This document shows, piece after piece, positions 23,139-34,222 of a DNA stretch of 35,290 bases (the stretch's first letter is position 1; each line of letters opens with the position of its first letter). The notes under the pieces are model-generated. The model saw only the letters and a list, made by a program, of their open reading frames with translations. It did not search any database and had not been told where the DNA came from. Origin of the DNA: a virus; IMG/VR virus record IMGVR_UViG_3300033143_002548, positions 1 through 35,290 of that record; one strand, given 5' to 3'. A program made the translations under genes and the position numbers.

Positions 23139-23509
23139 CACAATACCCCTGTCCGTCGTTCCTCGCCTCCGACGAGGAATTCAAATCCGTGCCCATAATA
23201 TCCGTTGTGCGCATTAAACAGGTGCAGGAACTGTTCTGCGTCGCCGTTTGTCATGCGGAAGATCGCCATATCCCCCTCTTCGAGCACGTCGTATTTGCCA
23301 GGCATATCCTGCCATTTACGAAAATATGCAGGGTCGAATGCCCACCCAGTCAGGTCTGGATCGTCGCCGCGTTCGACGATCTCCATCATGGGGTTGTCGG
23401 CGATGAACCAGTCGGCGTGCTCACAACAATTTTGGTCCATATCATACCCAAGCACGACGTTGTTCTCATCTACAAAGTTGACCTTGCAGTCTACGCGAAA
23501 CAGTTTCAT
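23138..23509 (-). CDS. Hypothetical acidic protein, 123 aa
   Basis: No named family assigned with certainty. Distinctive patches are NCCEHADWF near residue 28 and FLHLFNAHNGYYGHGFEF near the end; the latter (HNGYYGHxF) recurs in a family of small phage and bacterial proteins of unknown function. It is rich in Asp/Glu and aromatic residues. ATG 23509 overlaps the upstream stop (ATGA). Confidence 0.6.
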   Translation of the reverse strand: MKLFRVDCKVNFVDENNVVLGYDMDQNCCEHADWFIADNPMMEIVERGDDPDLTGWAFDPAYFRKWQDMPGKYDVLEEGDMAIFRMTNGDAEQFLHLFNAHNGYYGHGFEFLVGGEERRTGVL

Positions 23510-24084
23510 TCTGCGCCCTCCGATTCGCTCTTCGTCTTTGGCGGCCACCCTATACTCGCGAGATCTATCTCACGCACAACCCGGCACCGATGCACGCGGA
23601 ATTTACCGTCGGACGCGATTGGAATACACGCGATGTCGGCGCGGCCAAATTCTACAACCAGCACGCGATATCCCTCCCGCCACTCTTTCAGACACCAGTC
23701 AAGCGTTGCGAGGTTGATGCCCGGCGCACACTGGATGGCGTCGTCCGTGTCTGCGTCATCGACGCTAACCTGCTCGCCAACGCGATACTCGATGCCGCCC
23801 TTGATTGGTCCATATCCTTCTTCCGTCACCAACTTGTACGCGCGAATCTTGCCGACCTGGTCAAGAAGAATGCAAAGAGGCGAACAGAGCTGCTTACACA
23901 CCCCATCCGCGCCCGTCAAATACGCGCCCGTCAAATACGCGCCCGTCAAATGCGCGCCCGTCAAATGCGCGCCCGTCAAATCCGCGCCCTTGCCGACCGC
24001 CGCCTCGACAATTAGCCTCAACGATCCAAAACTCCCCGAGAACAAAACGGACCCGCTCCGGCGATGCTTAACTTCAATCTTCAT
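23506..24084 (-). CDS. Pentapeptide-repeat protein with C-terminal phage domain, 192 aa
   Basis: Residues about 34-61 are a pentapeptide repeat (ADLTG, AHLTG x2, AYLTG x2, AD), too few coils for a DNA-mimic like Qnr. The C-terminal domain (YGPIKGGIEYRVGEQV, GINLATLDWC, IASDGKFRVHRCRVV) matches a DUF5758-type domain often fused to such repeats in phages, function unknown. It is the first gene of the minus-strand early operon. The repeat is encoded by five near-identical 15-bp units. Confidence 0.7.
   Translation of the reverse strand: MKIEVKHRRSGSVLFSGSFGSLRLIVEAAVGKGADLTGAHLTGAHLTGAYLTGAYLTGADGVCKQLCSPLCILLDQVGKIRAYKLVTEEGYGPIKGGIEYRVGEQVSVDDADTDDAIQCAPGINLATLDWCLKEWREGYRVLVVEFGRADIACIPIASDGKFRVHRCRVVREIDLASIGWPPKTKSESEGAE
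23909..23983 (-). repeat. Five tandem 15-bp units encoding LTGAx pentapeptides
   Basis: Units GCGCCCGTCAAATAC/TGC/TCC (plus-strand reading) occur at 23909, 23924, 23939, 23954 and 23969. They differ only in the last codon positions (Tyr, Tyr, His, His, Asp). The DNA identity implies recent expansion by slippage or recombination, not ancient protein repeats. Confidence 0.9.
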
Positions 24085-24328
24085 GCTCCCCCCGCTTTAC
24101 CGACAGACACGGACGGGACCGGGGTCGCGTAGCATGATGAGCCAGAGAGCGAACGCACCGGCCCCGCCGCGTGTGGTTTCAGGTCGGTTTTGCGACTCAT
24201 CATGCGGCAACCCTACGCCCGCGCCGCCAGAGTGTCAACAATTATTTTCAATTTGTTTCGCTTTTTTTCTTGCGTTGCGATTGGCGGCGGTGTACGGTGC
24301 CCGGCGAACATCGGAAAGGGGGCGGCGA
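24085..24328. promoter_or_regulatory. Divergent early control region
   Basis: This 244-bp gene-free stretch separates the two early operons, which start at 24084 (leftward) and 24329 (rightward). Leftward candidate promoter: TTGACA (24238-24233), 17-nt spacer, TAGGGT (215-210 of 24 kb). Rightward candidate: TTGCGT (24270-24275), 17-nt spacer, TACGGT (24293-24298). Both -10 hexamers are weak, so activation may be needed. An AT-rich tract (about 24234-24270) stands out in the GC-rich region. A 10-bp inverted repeat lies between. Confidence 0.55.
24132..24205. promoter_or_regulatory. 10-bp inverted repeat, possible operator pair
   Basis: GCATGATGAG (24132-24141) and its exact complement CTCATCATGC (24196-24205) are separated by 54 bp, about five helical turns. 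Centre-to-centre spacing of 64 bp would put two protein molecules on the same face of the helix. The site lies just downstream of the leftward candidate -10, in the leader of the leftward operon. A repressor or looping site is inferred. Confidence 0.5.
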
Positions 24329-25398: not shown

Positions 25399-25407
25399 GG
25401 AGACGTG

Positions 25408-26130
25408 ATGGACAAGGATGCATGGCCGCCGCCGGGCGTGACGCCGTACTACGCCGACGATCACGTCCGCATCATCCACGCAGACAATCGGGACGTGCTG
25501 CCGGTGTTGCCGAAGGTGGATCTTGTTTTGACTGATCCGCCGTATGGCACGGAAGACTTGGGAGGAGGGTACGGCAGGAGACAGAACCACGACCCCAAGG
25601 GGCGATTTGGTCGACGTATTGCAGGCGACAAAGACTTGTCTGTTATGCGCGACGCGGTGTTGGCTCTGGTACTGGCCCCCGTCGCCGTTGCCGTCGCCTT
25701 TTGCTCGGCGCGGAAAAGGCATGAGTCCGAGTCTTTGTGGCGCGACAATGGTTGGCAGTATCGCGGCGAATTGATTTGGGACAAGCAGACGCCGGGCCTT
25801 GGCCACACCATTCGCTATACTCACGAGACGGCCATGGCATTCTATCGCGGCGATGTCCCCACCCCCGATCGCGCCGCTTTGTCGATTGTTCGACAACAGG
25901 TGTCTCACAAAAACACACAAGACCGGCATCCGCACGAAAAGCCTGTCAAATTCTGGATCAACGCGGCAAGGTTGTGCCCCGGATTGATCCTTGATCCATT
26001 CATGGGGTCCGGAACTACGCTCCGCGCCGCCAAGGATTTGAACCGCCGCGCTATCGGGGTTGAAATATCCGAGGAGTACTGCGAAATCGGAGCGCGTCGC
26101 ATGCAGCAGGAGGTGCTTGGCTTTGGATGA
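25408..26130 (+). CDS. DNA methyltransferase, DPPY type (N6-A or N4-C), 240 aa
   Basis: S-adenosylmethionine-dependent DNA amino-methyltransferase. Catalytic motif DPPYG lies at 43-47 and the SAM-binding motif FMGSGTT at about 198-204, then AIGVEISEEYCEIGARR. With DPPY before FxGxG, the order is the beta class. Length is usual for solitary phage methylases. It probably protects phage DNA from host restriction; no cognate endonuclease lies next to it. ATG 25408 is preferred over GTG 25405 for its spacing from GAGGAGAC. Confidence 0.9.
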   Translation: MDKDAWPPPGVTPYYADDHVRIIHADNRDVLPVLPKVDLVLTDPPYGTEDLGGGYGRRQNHDPKGRFGRRIAGDKDLSVMRDAVLALVLAPVAVAVAFCSARKRHESESLWRDNGWQYRGELIWDKQTPGLGHTIRYTHETAMAFYRGDVPTPDRAALSIVRQQVSHKNTQDRHPHEKPVKFWINAARLCPGLILDPFMGSGTTLRAAKDLNRRAIGVEISEEYCEIGARRMQQEVLGFG

Positions 26131-27081: not shown

Positions 27082-27290
27082 GATGTTTCTTTTGCAGAAA
27101 ACCACACACCCCTGCCGACCGCTTGATGGTGGCTCGCGTGTGGATAGCAAGCGGGAGAGAAGAAGACGACACACCATACGGGTTCTGCGCAGATTGCCTG
27201 CAAGGCATGACGGCGGCTGAGTTTTGGAGGCGGATTGCCGTGTGCGAAGCGTTTGGGGTTGCCGAGTTTGGCTCCGAGGACGGTTCGTGA
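27078..27290 (+). CDS. Zinc-ribbon small protein, 70 aa
   Basis: C3/C6 (CFFCRK) and C37/C40 (CADC) give a two-knuckle zinc ribbon with about 30 residues between. The C-terminal half is helical (TAAEFWRRIAVCEAFG). ATG 27078 follows GGAGGTGCGCT. The stop overlaps the GTG of the replication initiator (GTGA), so the two are coupled; a replication accessory role is possible. Confidence 0.6.
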   Translation: MRCFFCRKPHTPADRLMVARVWIASGREEDDTPYGFCADCLQGMTAAEFWRRIAVCEAFGVAEFGSEDGS

Positions 27291-28090
27291 ACATACACGG
27301 GCGATACGTTCTCCTGTACCACAAACTACTGGATAGCCCGATATTCGCAAGCGAACCATTGTTAAAACTTGCCGTATGGTGTCTGCTCAAAGCAAACAGG
27401 TATCCACACACCACAGCGATGAAAACTGGCAAGGGAGAAACGCTTGTGAGCCTGAAACCCGGGCAGCTCGTATTCGGGCGCCATACAGCGGCGCAAGAAT
27501 TGGGCATGAAAGGCACCACGATACGCTGCCGAATGCTGAAACTCAAAGAACTGGGCTTTCTTGACATGCAATCTGACACCCATTACAGCGTGATAACCAT
27601 TGCGAAATGGGGAGAATATCAGATTCCGCCAGATGAAGTTGACAGGCAAGTTGACACCCAACTGACAACCAACTGCCAACCAACTGACAACCAACTGACA
27701 CACTCTAGAGGGATAGATAGACATAAAGATAAAGGGATTAAGAACCCCCCTACCCCCCAAGGGGGGATTGCGCTTGAACTCGCAAAGCTCTTGCTTGAAT
27801 CCGTCGAGAAGGCTGAGGGCCGGAAGCTCACCACGAAACCCTCGGCAGGTACCGCACCGATTACTGCGCTCCTCAAAGACGTGACCGAAGACGATATCCG
27901 CAATACAATTGCGTGGTTGTGCAGCGAGAACCTCGCCCGCGATTATCGGTTTGCCGTGCAATCCGGGAAAGCTCTGCGCGAAAAGTGGGACCGCATACAG
28001 GCGGCAATGAACCGAAAGGACGACGGCCATGATCCTCGAAGCAAGACAAATCGCGGAGTCAATCGTGCGTCAGACTACGCAGGCTGTTGA
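27287..28090 (+). CDS. Replication initiator (lambda O / replisome-organizer type), 267 aa
   Basis: The N-terminal domain (about 1-115) reads GRYVLLYHKLLDSPIFASE, LKLAVWCLLKANR, LKPGQLVFGRHTAAQELG, TTIRCRMLKLKELGFL, a winged-helix pattern of phage initiators. A low-complexity Thr/Gln/Asn linker (about 118-155) is encoded by an iteron array. The C-terminal domain (about 160-260) resembles the helicase-loader contact domain of replisome organizers. It is immediately followed by a DnaC-like gene, like lambda O-P. GTG 27287 overlaps the upstream stop. It would bind its own iterons and recruit the host helicase. Confidence 0.8.
   Translation: MNIHGRYVLLYHKLLDSPIFASEPLLKLAVWCLLKANRYPHTTAMKTGKGETLVSLKPGQLVFGRHTAAQELGMKGTTIRCRMLKLKELGFLDMQSDTHYSVITIAKWGEYQIPPDEVDRQVDTQLTTNCQPTDNQLTHSRGIDRHKDKGIKNPPTPQGGIALELAKLLLESVEKAEGRKLTTKPSAGTAPITALLKDVTEDDIRNTIAWLCSENLARDYRFAVQSGKALREKWDRIQAAMNRKDDGHDPRSKTNRGVNRASDYAGC
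27636..27766 (+). other. Candidate replication origin: iterons, A/T-rich tract, palindrome
   Basis: Four directly adjacent 11-bp units lie at 27658 (CCAACTGACAA), 27669 (CCAACTGCCAA), 27680 (CCAACTGACAA) and 27691 (CCAACTGACAC). They are preceded by two AAGTTGACA copies (27636, 27648). A purine/AT-rich tract follows (about 27704-27745), then CCCCCC-AA-GGGGGG (27753-27766). Period 11 is not a multiple of three, so the repeat is maintained at DNA level although it is inside a coding region. This matches the layout of lambda ori within gene O. Confidence 0.75.
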
Positions 28091-28682
28091 CCCCGACCCC
28101 GACGGCTACCTTGCCAAGCGTGCGGAGTACAGGCTGGCAATCCCAGAGAGCTATCGCGGGTGCGAACTGAGCAGGTTTGAGTGGGAGAACCCATCAACCG
28201 TGTGCGCCAACTGTGAGCGGCTGTTGCGTTTTGCTGGCGCGGGTTCACCGGCGGGCCTGTTTTTGTTCGGGGTTTCCGGCAACGGCAAGACACACCTCGC
28301 GGCGGCTGTGGCGAACATCTGGATTGACGCCACCCCGCCCTTGCGGGTTGCGTGGTGCAACGTGCCTCTACGCGGACTGCGGATCCAGGATAGCTACGGC
28401 AGGAACGACACCAGCGCCATGTCGATACTCAAACCCTACATCAACGCCAAGCGGTGTATCATCGACGACCTGGGTACCACCCGCGCCGACTACGTGGCGG
28501 ACGCTATCCGGGTGCTGCTGAACGAACGCGCCGAACGCCGCTGCATCACGCTGATGACCAGCAACCTCACCATTGCGGACATTGCCGCGAAGATTGACGA
28601 ACGGATAGCCGACCGGATTCTGCGGATGTGCGACGTTGTGGAGTTGGACACCAAGAGCTACGCGCTGAGGCGGAAGGAATGA
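28029..28682 (+). CDS. DnaC/IstB-like helicase loader ATPase, 217 aa
   Basis: AAA+ ATPase that would load the replicative helicase. Walker A is GVSGNGKTH (81-89), Walker B IIDDLG (144-149), and sensor-like MTSNL follows (176-180). A Cys pair before the ATPase (VCANCERLL, about 59-62) hints at a metal-binding N-terminus. Similar in length to DnaC (245 aa). ATG 28029 lies inside the initiator gene's end (62-nt overlap) in a different frame. Together with the initiator it forms an O/P-like pair. Confidence 0.88.
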   Translation: MILEARQIAESIVRQTTQAVDPDPDGYLAKRAEYRLAIPESYRGCELSRFEWENPSTVCANCERLLRFAGAGSPAGLFLFGVSGNGKTHLAAAVANIWIDATPPLRVAWCNVPLRGLRIQDSYGRNDTSAMSILKPYINAKRCIIDDLGTTRADYVADAIRVLLNERAERRCITLMTSNLTIADIAAKIDERIADRILRMCDVVELDTKSYALRRKE

Positions 28683-28858
28683 AGCCGGGCTGCACGCTAT
28701 GCCAAGGGCTGATAACCACGGACGGGCACAAGCGGATACCGTGCCGGTTCTGCGGGTTTCTGTTTCCACGGCAAGCGCCGTTCGAAGCGAACCGCCCGCA
28801 CATCCGGGCCGCAATGTGGTTCCCGCACATGCCGCGTAGGTTCAAGGGGTCGACATGA
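28679..28858 (+). CDS. Zinc-ribbon small protein, 59 aa
   Basis: C5/C8 (CTLC) and C22/C25 (CRFC) form a zinc ribbon in a basic, aromatic protein ending PHMPRRFKGST. Overlaps both neighbours by 4 nt (ATG 28679). Position between helicase loader and cytosine methyltransferase gives no clear role. Confidence 0.6.
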   Translation: MKPGCTLCQGLITTDGHKRIPCRFCGFLFPRQAPFEANRPHIRAAMWFPHMPRRFKGST

Positions 28859-29889
28859 ACGAACTGTCATTGTTCTCCGGCGCGGGCGGCGGACTGCTCG
28901 CAACGCAACACATGCTGAATTGGAGGAGTGTGGGCTATGTCGAAAACGACACGTACTGCCAAGGAATACTTGCCCGACGGACGGAAGACGGGCTTCTGCA
29001 TAGCGCCCCCATCTTTGGGGATATCCGGCGATTTAACGAAGACGGATGGGCCGACGCGTATCAGGGAATGGTTGACGTCATCAGCGCAGGATTCCCATGC
29101 CAGCCGTTTTCGGTCGCCGGGAAGCAAGCGGGAGAAGATGACGAGCGGAACATGTGGCCTGCAACGATCGAATGCATTCGTCTGGTACGACCGCGCTTTG
29201 CGTTTCTGGAAAACGTGCCAGGGTTGCTTGCTTCCGGATACTTCGGACAGGTACTCGGAGACTTGGCCAAAACGGGGTACGATGCGGAATGGTGTGTGCT
29301 GGGCGCGGACGATGTTGGTGCCCCACACAGGCGGAAAAGGTTGTGGATCTTGGCCTACGCCAACGAAGCAGGACGGGGAGAACAACGCCGGCCCGAGCCA
29401 GTGGGGCCGGAACAGCGACCCGCTGAACGTGGCCGTTCATCGTGGTGGAACATCGACCCGGCGGACATACCCGACGCCGAGAGCGGAGGACAGTCAATGC
29501 GCGGGCGGACACAGAGGGAAGCCCGACACGCTACATGCACAAGGGAAAATATGGGCAAGCCCGAAGGCGAGCGCAAGCGGCCCGGACTACGCACGGAAGA
29601 ACCGCCCGAACAGCGGGAGCGACGATCTGGCGACGCAGGTTCGCGGGCAACTGAATCCGGGGTGGGTAGAATGGCTGATGGGGTGGCCGATAGGCTGGAC
29701 TTCACTCGAACCATTGCCGACGGACCGCTTCCGCGCGTGGCTACGGGGGTCCAGAATCGAGCCAGCCGATTGAAGGCCGTTGGCAACGGGCAGGTTCCGG
29801 CGACAAACGCGGCAGCATTTGAAGTCCTCGACAAGGCAAGGTGCGAGAAGCAGGACAGACACGAAAAACAAGAGGAGCGGAACACATGA
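28855..29889 (+). CDS. dcm: DNA cytosine-5 methyltransferase (Dcm-type), 344 aa
   Basis: Transfers a methyl group from SAM to C5 of cytosine in DNA. Motif I is LFSGAGGGL (6-14), motif IV GFPCQPFS with catalytic C82, motif VI ENV (119-121), motif VIII GAPHRRKRLWILA (155-167), and motif X RLKAVGNGQVP (about 305-315). Between VIII and X the target-recognition region is Arg/Glu-rich and low in complexity. The overlapping frame there has its own Dcm-like signatures. ATG 28855 overlaps the upstream stop. It likely modifies phage DNA against restriction. Confidence 0.9.
   Translation: MNELSLFSGAGGGLLATQHMLNWRSVGYVENDTYCQGILARRTEDGLLHSAPIFGDIRRFNEDGWADAYQGMVDVISAGFPCQPFSVAGKQAGEDDERNMWPATIECIRLVRPRFAFLENVPGLLASGYFGQVLGDLAKTGYDAEWCVLGADDVGAPHRRKRLWILAYANEAGRGEQRRPEPVGPEQRPAERGRSSWWNIDPADIPDAESGGQSMRGRTQREARHATCTRENMGKPEGERKRPGLRTEEPPEQRERRSGDAGSRATESGVGRMADGVADRLDFTRTIADGPLPRVATGVQNRASRLKAVGNGQVPATNAAAFEVLDKARCEKQDRHEKQEERNT
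28928..29773 (+). other. Overlapping +1 frame carrying a second Dcm-type C-terminal signature
   Basis: This frame is open for 281 codons inside the methyltransferase gene. From about 29240 it reads SETWPKRGTMRNGVCW, from 29348 SWPTPTKQDGENN, further on YPTPRAED, and from 29645 GQLNPGWVEWLMGWPIGW then TSLEPL. These are familiar features of the C-terminal region of another class of phage cytosine methylases. It would be entered from the methylase frame by a +1 (or -2) shift. It may be an ancestral frame, a shifted product or compensating sequence errors. Confidence 0.6.
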
Positions 29890-32272: not shown

Positions 32273-34222
32273 TCACCGCCTCCTAATGTTGATCTTCCGT
32301 TTGATAAACGGCTCGGGCGCGTTGCCCGCCGCCTTCTTTGCCGTCCGTGGTTCATACGCCGCCGCCGCCGTCACGACTTCTTGCTCCGGCTTCAACGACA
32401 TGCACCGCTTGACGTTCGCGATGGCCAGCGCGTACACGATGCAGTCAAGGTAATGGTTCGCCGCAAATCCGGGCCGCGTAACCCACCGCGTGACGCGCTT
32501 GCCCCCGCGACTCTTCCGGGAAACCTCATGTTCGCTCTGCATGTGGCGGTCAAAAACCGCGTCACGGTCGGCAGGGAGGTGGAACCGGACGGGGTCGCTC
32601 TGGTCGCGCCGGTTGATGCGATAGTAAATCATGCGCTTCCAATACGCCGTATTGAGCAAGTAGCCGCGTGCGCTGCCCGGCAACGGCTTCCCCTTGGCGT
32701 CCTTGTCGAGCAACGTCACGCGGTGCGGTTCAAGCACGCGTGTCCGGGTATATACCTGTTCATCCTCGCCGAGCACAACAGTCATCAGCGGTTCGCCCCG
32801 GCAGAATTCTTTGATGTCTTTCGGCTTGAACCTTCCGTCAATCGCGCCCGCCGCGACGTGCATGCTTTTCCCCGACGGGTGCAAGAACGTGGTTGACCTC
32901 AGCCACGCCTTCAACTCGTGTTCGTTGCCCACAATGCCCCACGCAATCACCCACACCTCGGACGCCGCGCCGAGCCCGATCACAACATAGTGGACCTGTT
33001 CAAGTCGAACGTCGGAACCGAGAAACAGAACCTTGACGCCTTCCGGGATCTGGTTCCGGGAGTACGTTGTCGGGCTCAATTTCGATACGGCGTCAAGCGT
33101 CTCCGCCGTTATCAACACGCTTCCCAGGTCATCCATGTCGCACGGCAACGCAAGCCACGAACGGACAAAGTCGGCTATGTTTTCCGGGTCGCCCGATATC
33201 TTGGCGCGCAGATACACCGCCGCGATCTCACCGAACTTGCAAGAGTCCCACGGCGCATAGATGCTCGGCAGGTAGAACGTTTCCCACCGGGCACCGGGGT
33301 TGAGTGCCTCCCACTTTCCCCGCGCCAGCATCTCCGGCAGGTGTCGGTCAAGAATCTTGCCGCCGCAGTCTTGGCATTCATACCAGCCATGATCCGGCAA
33401 GTCGCGTATCGCCATGTCTTTCGGCCAGCGCATCTGTTTCCATTCGAGGCCAATCCGCTTCCTGCAATGCGGGCACGGCACGCGGAACAGCCACACGGTT
33501 GACGTGCCGTCGGGTTCCCATGCAGAGACATTCCACAACTCTTCACCCGTGGCCTCGTCGTTTTTCGGCTTGAGCCCGACGGTATTCCAGAACGCATCCT
33601 TGCGCGTGCGTGGTGTGGACGCCGACACGATCTTGTGATTGCTGTACGACTTCGTTCTGTTGTCAACCGTGGCCGACGATCCGCGCTCAAACAAGGATTC
33701 CTCATCCTTGAACACGTTGCGGATCGGGTGGCTGCGCTGCGTGGATTCCGAACCCGCCCACCCGAAATAGAACGTCATGCGGTCGAGCGTGTATTCAAGG
33801 ACGTTGAAGTCGTGCGAAGCCCCCGTCTTGTGCCGCCGGATCGCGGGGCTATCGTTGATGAACGGTTGCAACCGCCCCTTGCTCACGCGCTTGCAGAAGT
33901 CCTGCGTCGGCCCCATGTACATCGTCGGACCCGGATGCAGGTCAATCGTGTAGCCCATCATCAAAAACATGGCCGTCGTCTTCGCGGACTGCGTGCCGAA
34001 GCAGAGCTTGATCCGCTGGATGCGCGGGTCGATGTAGCGGTTCACAATAAATCTCAGGTACGGCGTGTACTTGAACCGGAACGGCCCGGACAATTGCGAT
34101 TGCCGATTGGTCAGCGTGACGTTGCGCTCGGCCCATGCGTCAACCTGTTCGAGCTTAGGGGGCACCATGGCCCGCGTGAATGATTCGACGATTTGAACGC
34201 TGAGCGATTTCTCTTCATTCAT
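32273..34222 (-). CDS. Terminase large subunit (lambda gpA-like), 649 aa
   Basis: The packaging motor and cos-cleaving nuclease. The ATPase region has GTQSAKTT (76-83) as Walker A and NVFKDEES (169-176) as the Walker B acidic pair. A CPHC...CQDC zinc site (250-253, 283-286) is usual in the gpA family. The C-terminal nuclease starts near FLGSDVRLEQVHYVV. Length is close to lambda gpA (641 aa). ATG 34222 is chosen because it overlaps the small subunit stop by 8 nt; the frame upstream of it is an Arg-rich shadow of that gene. Confidence 0.93.
   Translation of the reverse strand: MNEEKSLSVQIVESFTRAMVPPKLEQVDAWAERNVTLTNRQSQLSGPFRFKYTPYLRFIVNRYIDPRIQRIKLCFGTQSAKTTAMFLMMGYTIDLHPGPTMYMGPTQDFCKRVSKGRLQPFINDSPAIRRHKTGASHDFNVLEYTLDRMTFYFGWAGSESTQRSHPIRNVFKDEESLFERGSSATVDNRTKSYSNHKIVSASTPRTRKDAFWNTVGLKPKNDEATGEELWNVSAWEPDGTSTVWLFRVPCPHCRKRIGLEWKQMRWPKDMAIRDLPDHGWYECQDCGGKILDRHLPEMLARGKWEALNPGARWETFYLPSIYAPWDSCKFGEIAAVYLRAKISGDPENIADFVRSWLALPCDMDDLGSVLITAETLDAVSKLSPTTYSRNQIPEGVKVLFLGSDVRLEQVHYVVIGLGAASEVWVIAWGIVGNEHELKAWLRSTTFLHPSGKSMHVAAGAIDGRFKPKDIKEFCRGEPLMTVVLGEDEQVYTRTRVLEPHRVTLLDKDAKGKPLPGSARGYLLNTAYWKRMIYYRINRRDQSDPVRFHLPADRDAVFDRHMQSEHEVSRKSRGGKRVTRWVTRPGFAANHYLDCIVYALAIANVKRCMSLKPEQEVVTAAAAYEPRTAKKAAGNAPEPFIKRKINIRRR

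Follow-up and report, generated by a model that had tools for sequence, protein, structure and literature searches.

A predicted replication origin with an 11-bp iteron pitch within the initiator gene of an uncultivated phage

Results

Organization of the replication region

The window analyzed here is the whole IMG/VR record IMGVR_UViG_3300033143_002548, a linear fragment of 35,290 bp. Its replication region contains an initiator gene, which carries a repeat array and an A/T-rich tract inside its coding sequence, and the gene of a helicase loader. The features are as follows:

27287..28090, plus strand: initiator gene (GTG start, 267 aa), encoding an N-terminal winged-helix domain, a linker predicted to be disordered, and a helical C-terminal part
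27308..27640, plus strand: winged-helix DNA-binding domain, codons 8-118 (block pLDDT mostly above 90)
27639..27651, plus strand: extra diverged unit TTGACAGGCAAGT upstream of the array, at 12-bp spacing
27652..27706, plus strand: iteron array composed of TGACACCCAAC, TGACAACCAAC, TGCCAACCAAC, TGACAACCAAC, and a degenerate TGACACACTCT, at 11-bp pitch
27674..27676, plus strand: in-frame would-be TGA (codon 130), which reads TGC (Cys)
27700..27745, plus strand: A/T-rich and purine-rich tract adjoining the array downstream, a candidate DNA-unwinding element
27754..27767, no strand assigned: CCCCCC-AA-GGGGGG palindrome (C6-AA-G6), present in the window and not conserved in the family
28029..28682, plus strand: DnaC-like helicase loader gene, overlapping the 3' end of the initiator gene

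The initiator protein matched PHROG 2514 ("DnaD-like helicase loader") over residues 7-253 with an E value of 9.7e-21, and no Pfam family at E ≤ 0.1, the RepA_N domain (PF06970) included. The product of the overlapping gene is a DnaC-like AAA+ loader (IstB PF01695, E value of 2.3e-11; PHROG 50, E value of 1e-30), as an earlier sequence-only reading of this DNA had anticipated. A DnaC-like loader or a replicative helicase is encoded directly after the initiator in the window, Bacillus Palmer, Pseudomonas Orisa, and Shewanella 3/49, and also in mEp235, Lactobacillus AT3, ST160, and Vibrio 1.085. Of note, DNA methyltransferase genes, one of the N4/N6 type and one of the C5 type, are found on either side of the replication region (25405-26130 and 28855-29889). 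In an ORF on the minus strand (23506-24084), pentapeptide-like units (LTGAH/LTGAY) follow one another in tandem, and the 15-bp repeats that encode them are similar.

An AlphaFold model of the window initiator was built with 44 family sequences. Residues 8-118 formed a confident winged-helix domain, residues 121-158 were of low confidence, and the C-terminal part was helical and less certain. According to this model, residues 121-158 are probably disordered. The array and the A/T-rich tract together correspond to codons 122-153, so the candidate origin would lie within the disordered linker, in line with the placement of the iterons between two domains by the sequence-only reading.

A sequence search found no solved structure of the window initiator, and the family profile gave nothing but weak matches to regulators. 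When the N-domain model was used in a structure comparison, 4pql (Z of 8.7) and 4pt7 (Z of 8.1) were the only ones among the matches listed to align over the whole domain, with rmsd values of 4.6-5.0 and middling Z values. These structures represent pSK41 RepA, and 4PT7 and 4PTA are entries for staphylococcal plasmid RepA proteins (PMC7145576). The window protein does not match the RepA_N Pfam family of such plasmid initiators, and the structural match is a lead rather than proof.

When the window protein was the sole query, scanning viral contigs detected no relative. Using tblastn, the window initiator matched Staphylococcus phages (E value of 1e-24) and the O protein of coliphage mEp235 (E value of 3e-8), while HK022 O and the P22-type gp18 were reached via a family member, with E values of about 1e-10. 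By sequence similarity, the nearest relatives of the window initiator are therefore members of the HK022 O/P22-type gp18/"DnaD-like" family, and not lambda O.

An 11-nt periodicity within the initiator gene

A repeat search identified direct repeats of one family at 27652-27706, within the initiator gene (27287-28090), spaced by 11, 11, and 11. Units of the CCAACTGACAA type start at 27658, 27669, 27680, and 27691 (block 27658-27701), with 0, 1, 0, and 1 mismatches, respectively. The four adjacent 11-bp iterons previously read at this place are thus real, and they are accompanied by a partial, degenerate fifth copy at 27696-27706. The rest of the window has no comparable CCAACTGACAA-type array, with a single site carrying two mismatches at 33158.

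The array lies approximately 370 bp into the coding region. At a lag of 11, the best match over 33 nt in the initiator gene was 30/33, at 27652. Shuffling the codons of this gene 20,000 times never attained this score and gave a maximum of 23. Lags other than multiples of 11 scored at most 19, and the linker taken alone gave a codon-shuffle p value of approximately 0.001 at lag 11. The 11-nt periodicity of this gene is far beyond chance.

The pitch is conserved in the initiator family while the unit varies

Relatives of the window initiator (the HK022 O/P22-type gp18/"DnaD-like" initiators, hereafter family A) were gathered by protein similarity from named phages, IMG/VR, and the genomes of three bacterial phyla. 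After dropping members that were more than 85% similar, 87 non-redundant sequences were kept. The N-domain was placed by HMM, and the 150 nt downstream of it were analyzed. In this linker region, the mean best match was 0.79 at lag 11, with further peaks at 22 and 33, and approximately 0.5 at most other lags. No 11-nt pitch was found in the regions coding for the N-domain and the C-terminal part of the 87 members.

Lag 11 was significant (p ≤ 0.01, codon shuffle) in 68/87 members, and the control lags 10, 13, and 14 in 1, 1, and 0 of the 87. The proportion was 66/85 when the window and the loci found through the array itself were left out, and 37/51 under a stricter redundancy cut. The repeats that the sequence-only reading expected in the linkers of relatives are thus present in most of them. 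Many of the 19 members that fall short of significance at lag 11 have repeats of 12 or 22 nt instead, and a few have none.

Unit sequences vary within family A while the pitch persists. Unit similarity correlates with N-domain identity (Mantel r of 0.246, 0/2000 permutations) and not with C-terminal identity (r of 0.008), although the C-terminal parts are diverse, which makes this half of the test weak. Linkage of the array and the N-domain within one gene could contribute to the correlation. It should be noted that the unit alignment was rotated toward the unit of the window, which biases the base profile; this profile was not used for any claim of a shared motif.

Pitch in other initiator families

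Two further groups were analyzed, the Tuc2009-type initiators (family B) and the TP901-1/80alpha-type initiators (family C). An 11-nt pitch was present in 24/26 family B members, or 15/17 when counting only those found by protein, and a 5-bp (WWAGG)n tract comes after the family B arrays. The family C linker has a 15-nt pitch (match of 0.84), and none of its 19 members was positive at lag 11. Because 15 is a multiple of 3, a protein repeat is a possible source of the family C pitch. Profile comparisons detected no similarity between family A and family B, family C, or lambda O. The N-domain model of the Tuc2009 type was of low confidence (mean pLDDT of 63.5) and was not used. Many phages with only distant relationships share the 11-bp spacing, which depends on the initiator type: with 11 in families A and B, 15 in family C, and 20-24 in lambda, the pitch follows the DNA-binding-domain family.

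The (WWAGG)n tract of family B (for example in L001, L046, and L093) encodes LGKDRLGKDR. Its TTAGG, TAAGG, and ATAGG variants are ordered in such a way that neither TAA nor TAG falls in frame, an order that suggests selection at the DNA level.

Long arrays of the same iteron, mostly followed by a (WWAGG)n tract, were also observed away from any initiator gene, in chromosomal DNA between genes. Six of these are found in one genome (G001, the Clostridiales MAG Firm_04; L007, L010, L014, L017, L023, and L039) and one in Oscillospiraceae RGIG6106 (L008). In Firm_04, a prophage-type initiator gene (L021) also contains one copy. Among 100 genomes of that family, no other one has the junction of array and tract. 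These initiator-less arrays could be decoys, origins of satellites or mini-elements, or relics. Finally, Magnetococcales DCbin2 (L016) has three iteron units at about position 2187, in apparently non-coding DNA with no initiator gene at the array, shortly upstream of the 3' end of an apparent tRNA gene.

Selection on the DNA of the array and escape from stop codons

In 92 arrays, deviations from the consensus unit were spread evenly over codon positions 1, 2, and 3 (14.1, 15.2, and 15.2%, respectively). The unit contains a stop triplet in 37 of these arrays. As 11 and 3 have no common factor, an array of perfect copies of such a unit would place a stop in frame every 33 nt. Out of frame, the stop triplets were retained in 83% of 136 cases; in frame, the would-be stops were escaped by exactly one base in 44/52 cases. 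Because the frame is open, the absence of retained in-frame stops is true by construction, and the informative observations are the single-base escape and the out-of-frame retention. The window follows the same pattern: the would-be TGA at codon 130 is changed to TGC, and the remaining copies keep TGA out of frame. Loci with a nearly identical unit have TGG (L001 and L004) or TAT (L003) at the in-frame stop site. Selection acts on the DNA of the array, as the sequence-only reading had argued from the pitch.

The repeats might instead do nothing but encode a low-complexity linker rich in Q, N, and T, the DNA repeat being a by-product of slippage or composition. The linkers of the family are indeed Q-, N-, and T-rich, and that of the window is predicted to be disordered. 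This explanation is nevertheless highly improbable. Since 11 is not a multiple of 3, protein repeats cannot yield an 11-nt pitch; codon shuffles that keep the composition do not reach this pitch, and the deviations are even across codon positions. Moreover, the TP901-1/80alpha-type linkers are also N/T-rich and yet have no 11-nt pitch, and the pitch is kept while the units diverge, unlike in recent slippage.

The A/T-rich tract, the palindrome, and GC skew

The tract that follows the iterons (27700-27745), also pointed out by the sequence-only reading, ranks second in A/T content among all 46-mers of the 35-kb window, with 65% A+T versus approximately 41% for the genome. The most A/T-rich 46-mer (24237-24282, 72%) is located near a switch in gene direction and is a candidate divergent promoter region. 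Across family A, the 30 bp located 3' of the array are 75% A+T and 75% purine, while the genes are 61% A+T.

The C6-AA-G6 palindrome described in the sequence-only reading exists, its arms ending at 27767 and not 27766. As a family feature, it was not recovered: the best inverted-repeat arms after the array averaged 5.33 versus 4.92 expected, with 7/67 at p ≤ 0.05. The hairpin was therefore not kept as a conserved element.

GC skew, which had been suggested as a check, did not prove useful. In the window, it did not point independently to an origin at 27.7 kb, and it is uninformative on this point because it tracks gene orientation. As the record is a linear fragment, a second origin could lie elsewhere.

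Comparison with known systems

It is well established that origins can lie within initiator genes (lambda O, SPP1 gene 38, Tuc2009, TP901-1, 80alpha, and pSK41), and the window array is very probably a further example of this arrangement. HK022 O, the P22-type gp18 (ST160), and mEp235 O share the N-domain family of the window initiator, and a helicase or P gene is next. They carry 11-nt repeats at the same gene position (21/22 for the TGTCCAACGGA units of gp18 and 17/22 for HK022), with unit sequences that differ from that of the window. The gp18/gp12 phages encode a replicative helicase in place of the DnaC-like loader.

The linker of Tuc2009 Rep2009 contains 11-bp direct repeats whose unit, CAACCAAATGA, is nearly that of the window, and the Tuc2009 record is annotated as "contains origin of replication". 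Its N-domain, however, belongs to another sequence family with no profile similarity, and its array is followed by the (WWAGG)n 5-bp tract. The Tuc2009 and TP901-1 initiators are described as binding direct repeats that are internal to the initiator genes themselves and function as ori (PMC8965321). TP901-1 ORF13 and Staphylococcus phage 80alpha ORF20 are described with the origin in the initiator gene, as proposed for the window (PMC8965321, PMC5499656), but they have a different N-domain and a pitch of 15 bp instead of 11. Complementation of an 80alpha ORF20 mutant in trans did not succeed, which suggests that an ori is embedded there (PMC5499656). In plasmid pSK41, whose RepA winged-helix domain is the one that aligned over its full length with the window model, the Rep NTD binds four boxes located centrally in rep, and the linker that the origin encodes is not required (PMC5703833). 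Characterized RepA_N iterons are mostly described as semi-palindromic (PMC7145576). SPP1 gene 38/oriL, likened here to the window on the basis of its published description, has direct repeats in the initiator gene, an A/T-rich unwinding element, and the loader gp39 (PMC6316719).

The sequence-only reading had called the array lambda-ori-like, and the anatomy supports this likeness: in lambda, iterons and an A/T-rich tract are also found in the middle of the initiator gene O, which is followed by a loader gene (PMC7466680). Could the array then be a lambda-type origin, belonging to the lambda O/ori family? The lambda iterons are 18 bp long at 20-24 bp spacing (starts at 39034, 39054, 39078, and 39101 in the lambda record), versus 11 bp in the window, and lambda O has no 11-nt periodicity (lag 11, only 10/22). 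No similarity to lambda O was detectable with the family A profile, although a distant homology is possible. Membership in the lambda type was rejected on iteron length and spacing, and we consider it very unlikely. The suggestion of an independent or very diverged lambda-like case is not supported either, as the window protein belongs to a large family that includes mEp235 O, HK022 O, and the P22-type gp18.

Discussion

From the array, its position, the family-wide pitch, the DNA-level constraint, the co-variation of unit and N-domain, and the synteny, we infer that the array and the A/T-rich tract are very probably the replication origin of this phage, located where its own initiator gene encodes the linker and used through N-domain binding, tract opening, and helicase loading. 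By analogy with Tuc2009, TP901-1, SPP1, 80alpha, lambda, and pSK41, the N-terminal winged-helix domain would bind the 11-bp iterons, approximately one per helical turn, so that several initiator protomers would sit side by side on the same DNA face. The aligned initiators would strain and open the A/T- and purine-rich tract downstream, after which the C-terminal part and the DnaC-like loader would load the host replicative helicase.

The array could also be seen as an operator, with binding of the N-domain regulating or repressing the initiator operon rather than starting replication. The N-domain fold is common to many transcription regulators, and binding inside the gene could serve autoregulation as well, since operator and origin roles are not exclusive. 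We regard an operator in place of an origin as unlikely: the array lies inside the coding region (approximately 370 bp in) and is followed by an A/T-rich tract, the next gene in most relatives encodes a helicase loader or helicase, and homologous or analogous arrays are described as origins on experimental grounds (PMC8965321, PMC5703833).

Beyond the predicted origin of this phage, we lean toward a general pitch rule for origins located in phage initiator genes. Iteron spacing would be set by the DNA-binding-domain family, the unit would drift freely, and the frame would be kept open by single-base departures at would-be stops, making origins and initiator types readable from genomes. The values behind this rule are 11 bp in two families without detectable sequence similarity, 15 bp in the TP901-1/80alpha type, and 20-24 bp in lambda. 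In a literature search of incomplete coverage, with the principal review of phage replication modules (Weigel and Seitz 2006) outside its scope, we found no paper stating the pitch rule or the stop-escape pattern. What may be new in this work is the pitch rule.

For this uncultivated phage, the likely origin is placed to within approximately 100 bp, and the protein predicted to bind it is named. The array would be a sequence that doubles as protein-binding DNA and coding DNA, in which the conflict, a stop codon at every third repeat, and its solution are both visible. If the pitch rule is true, origins would be predictable in thousands of phages and prophages whose replication is unstudied, and so would origin-based interference (the PER phenotype).
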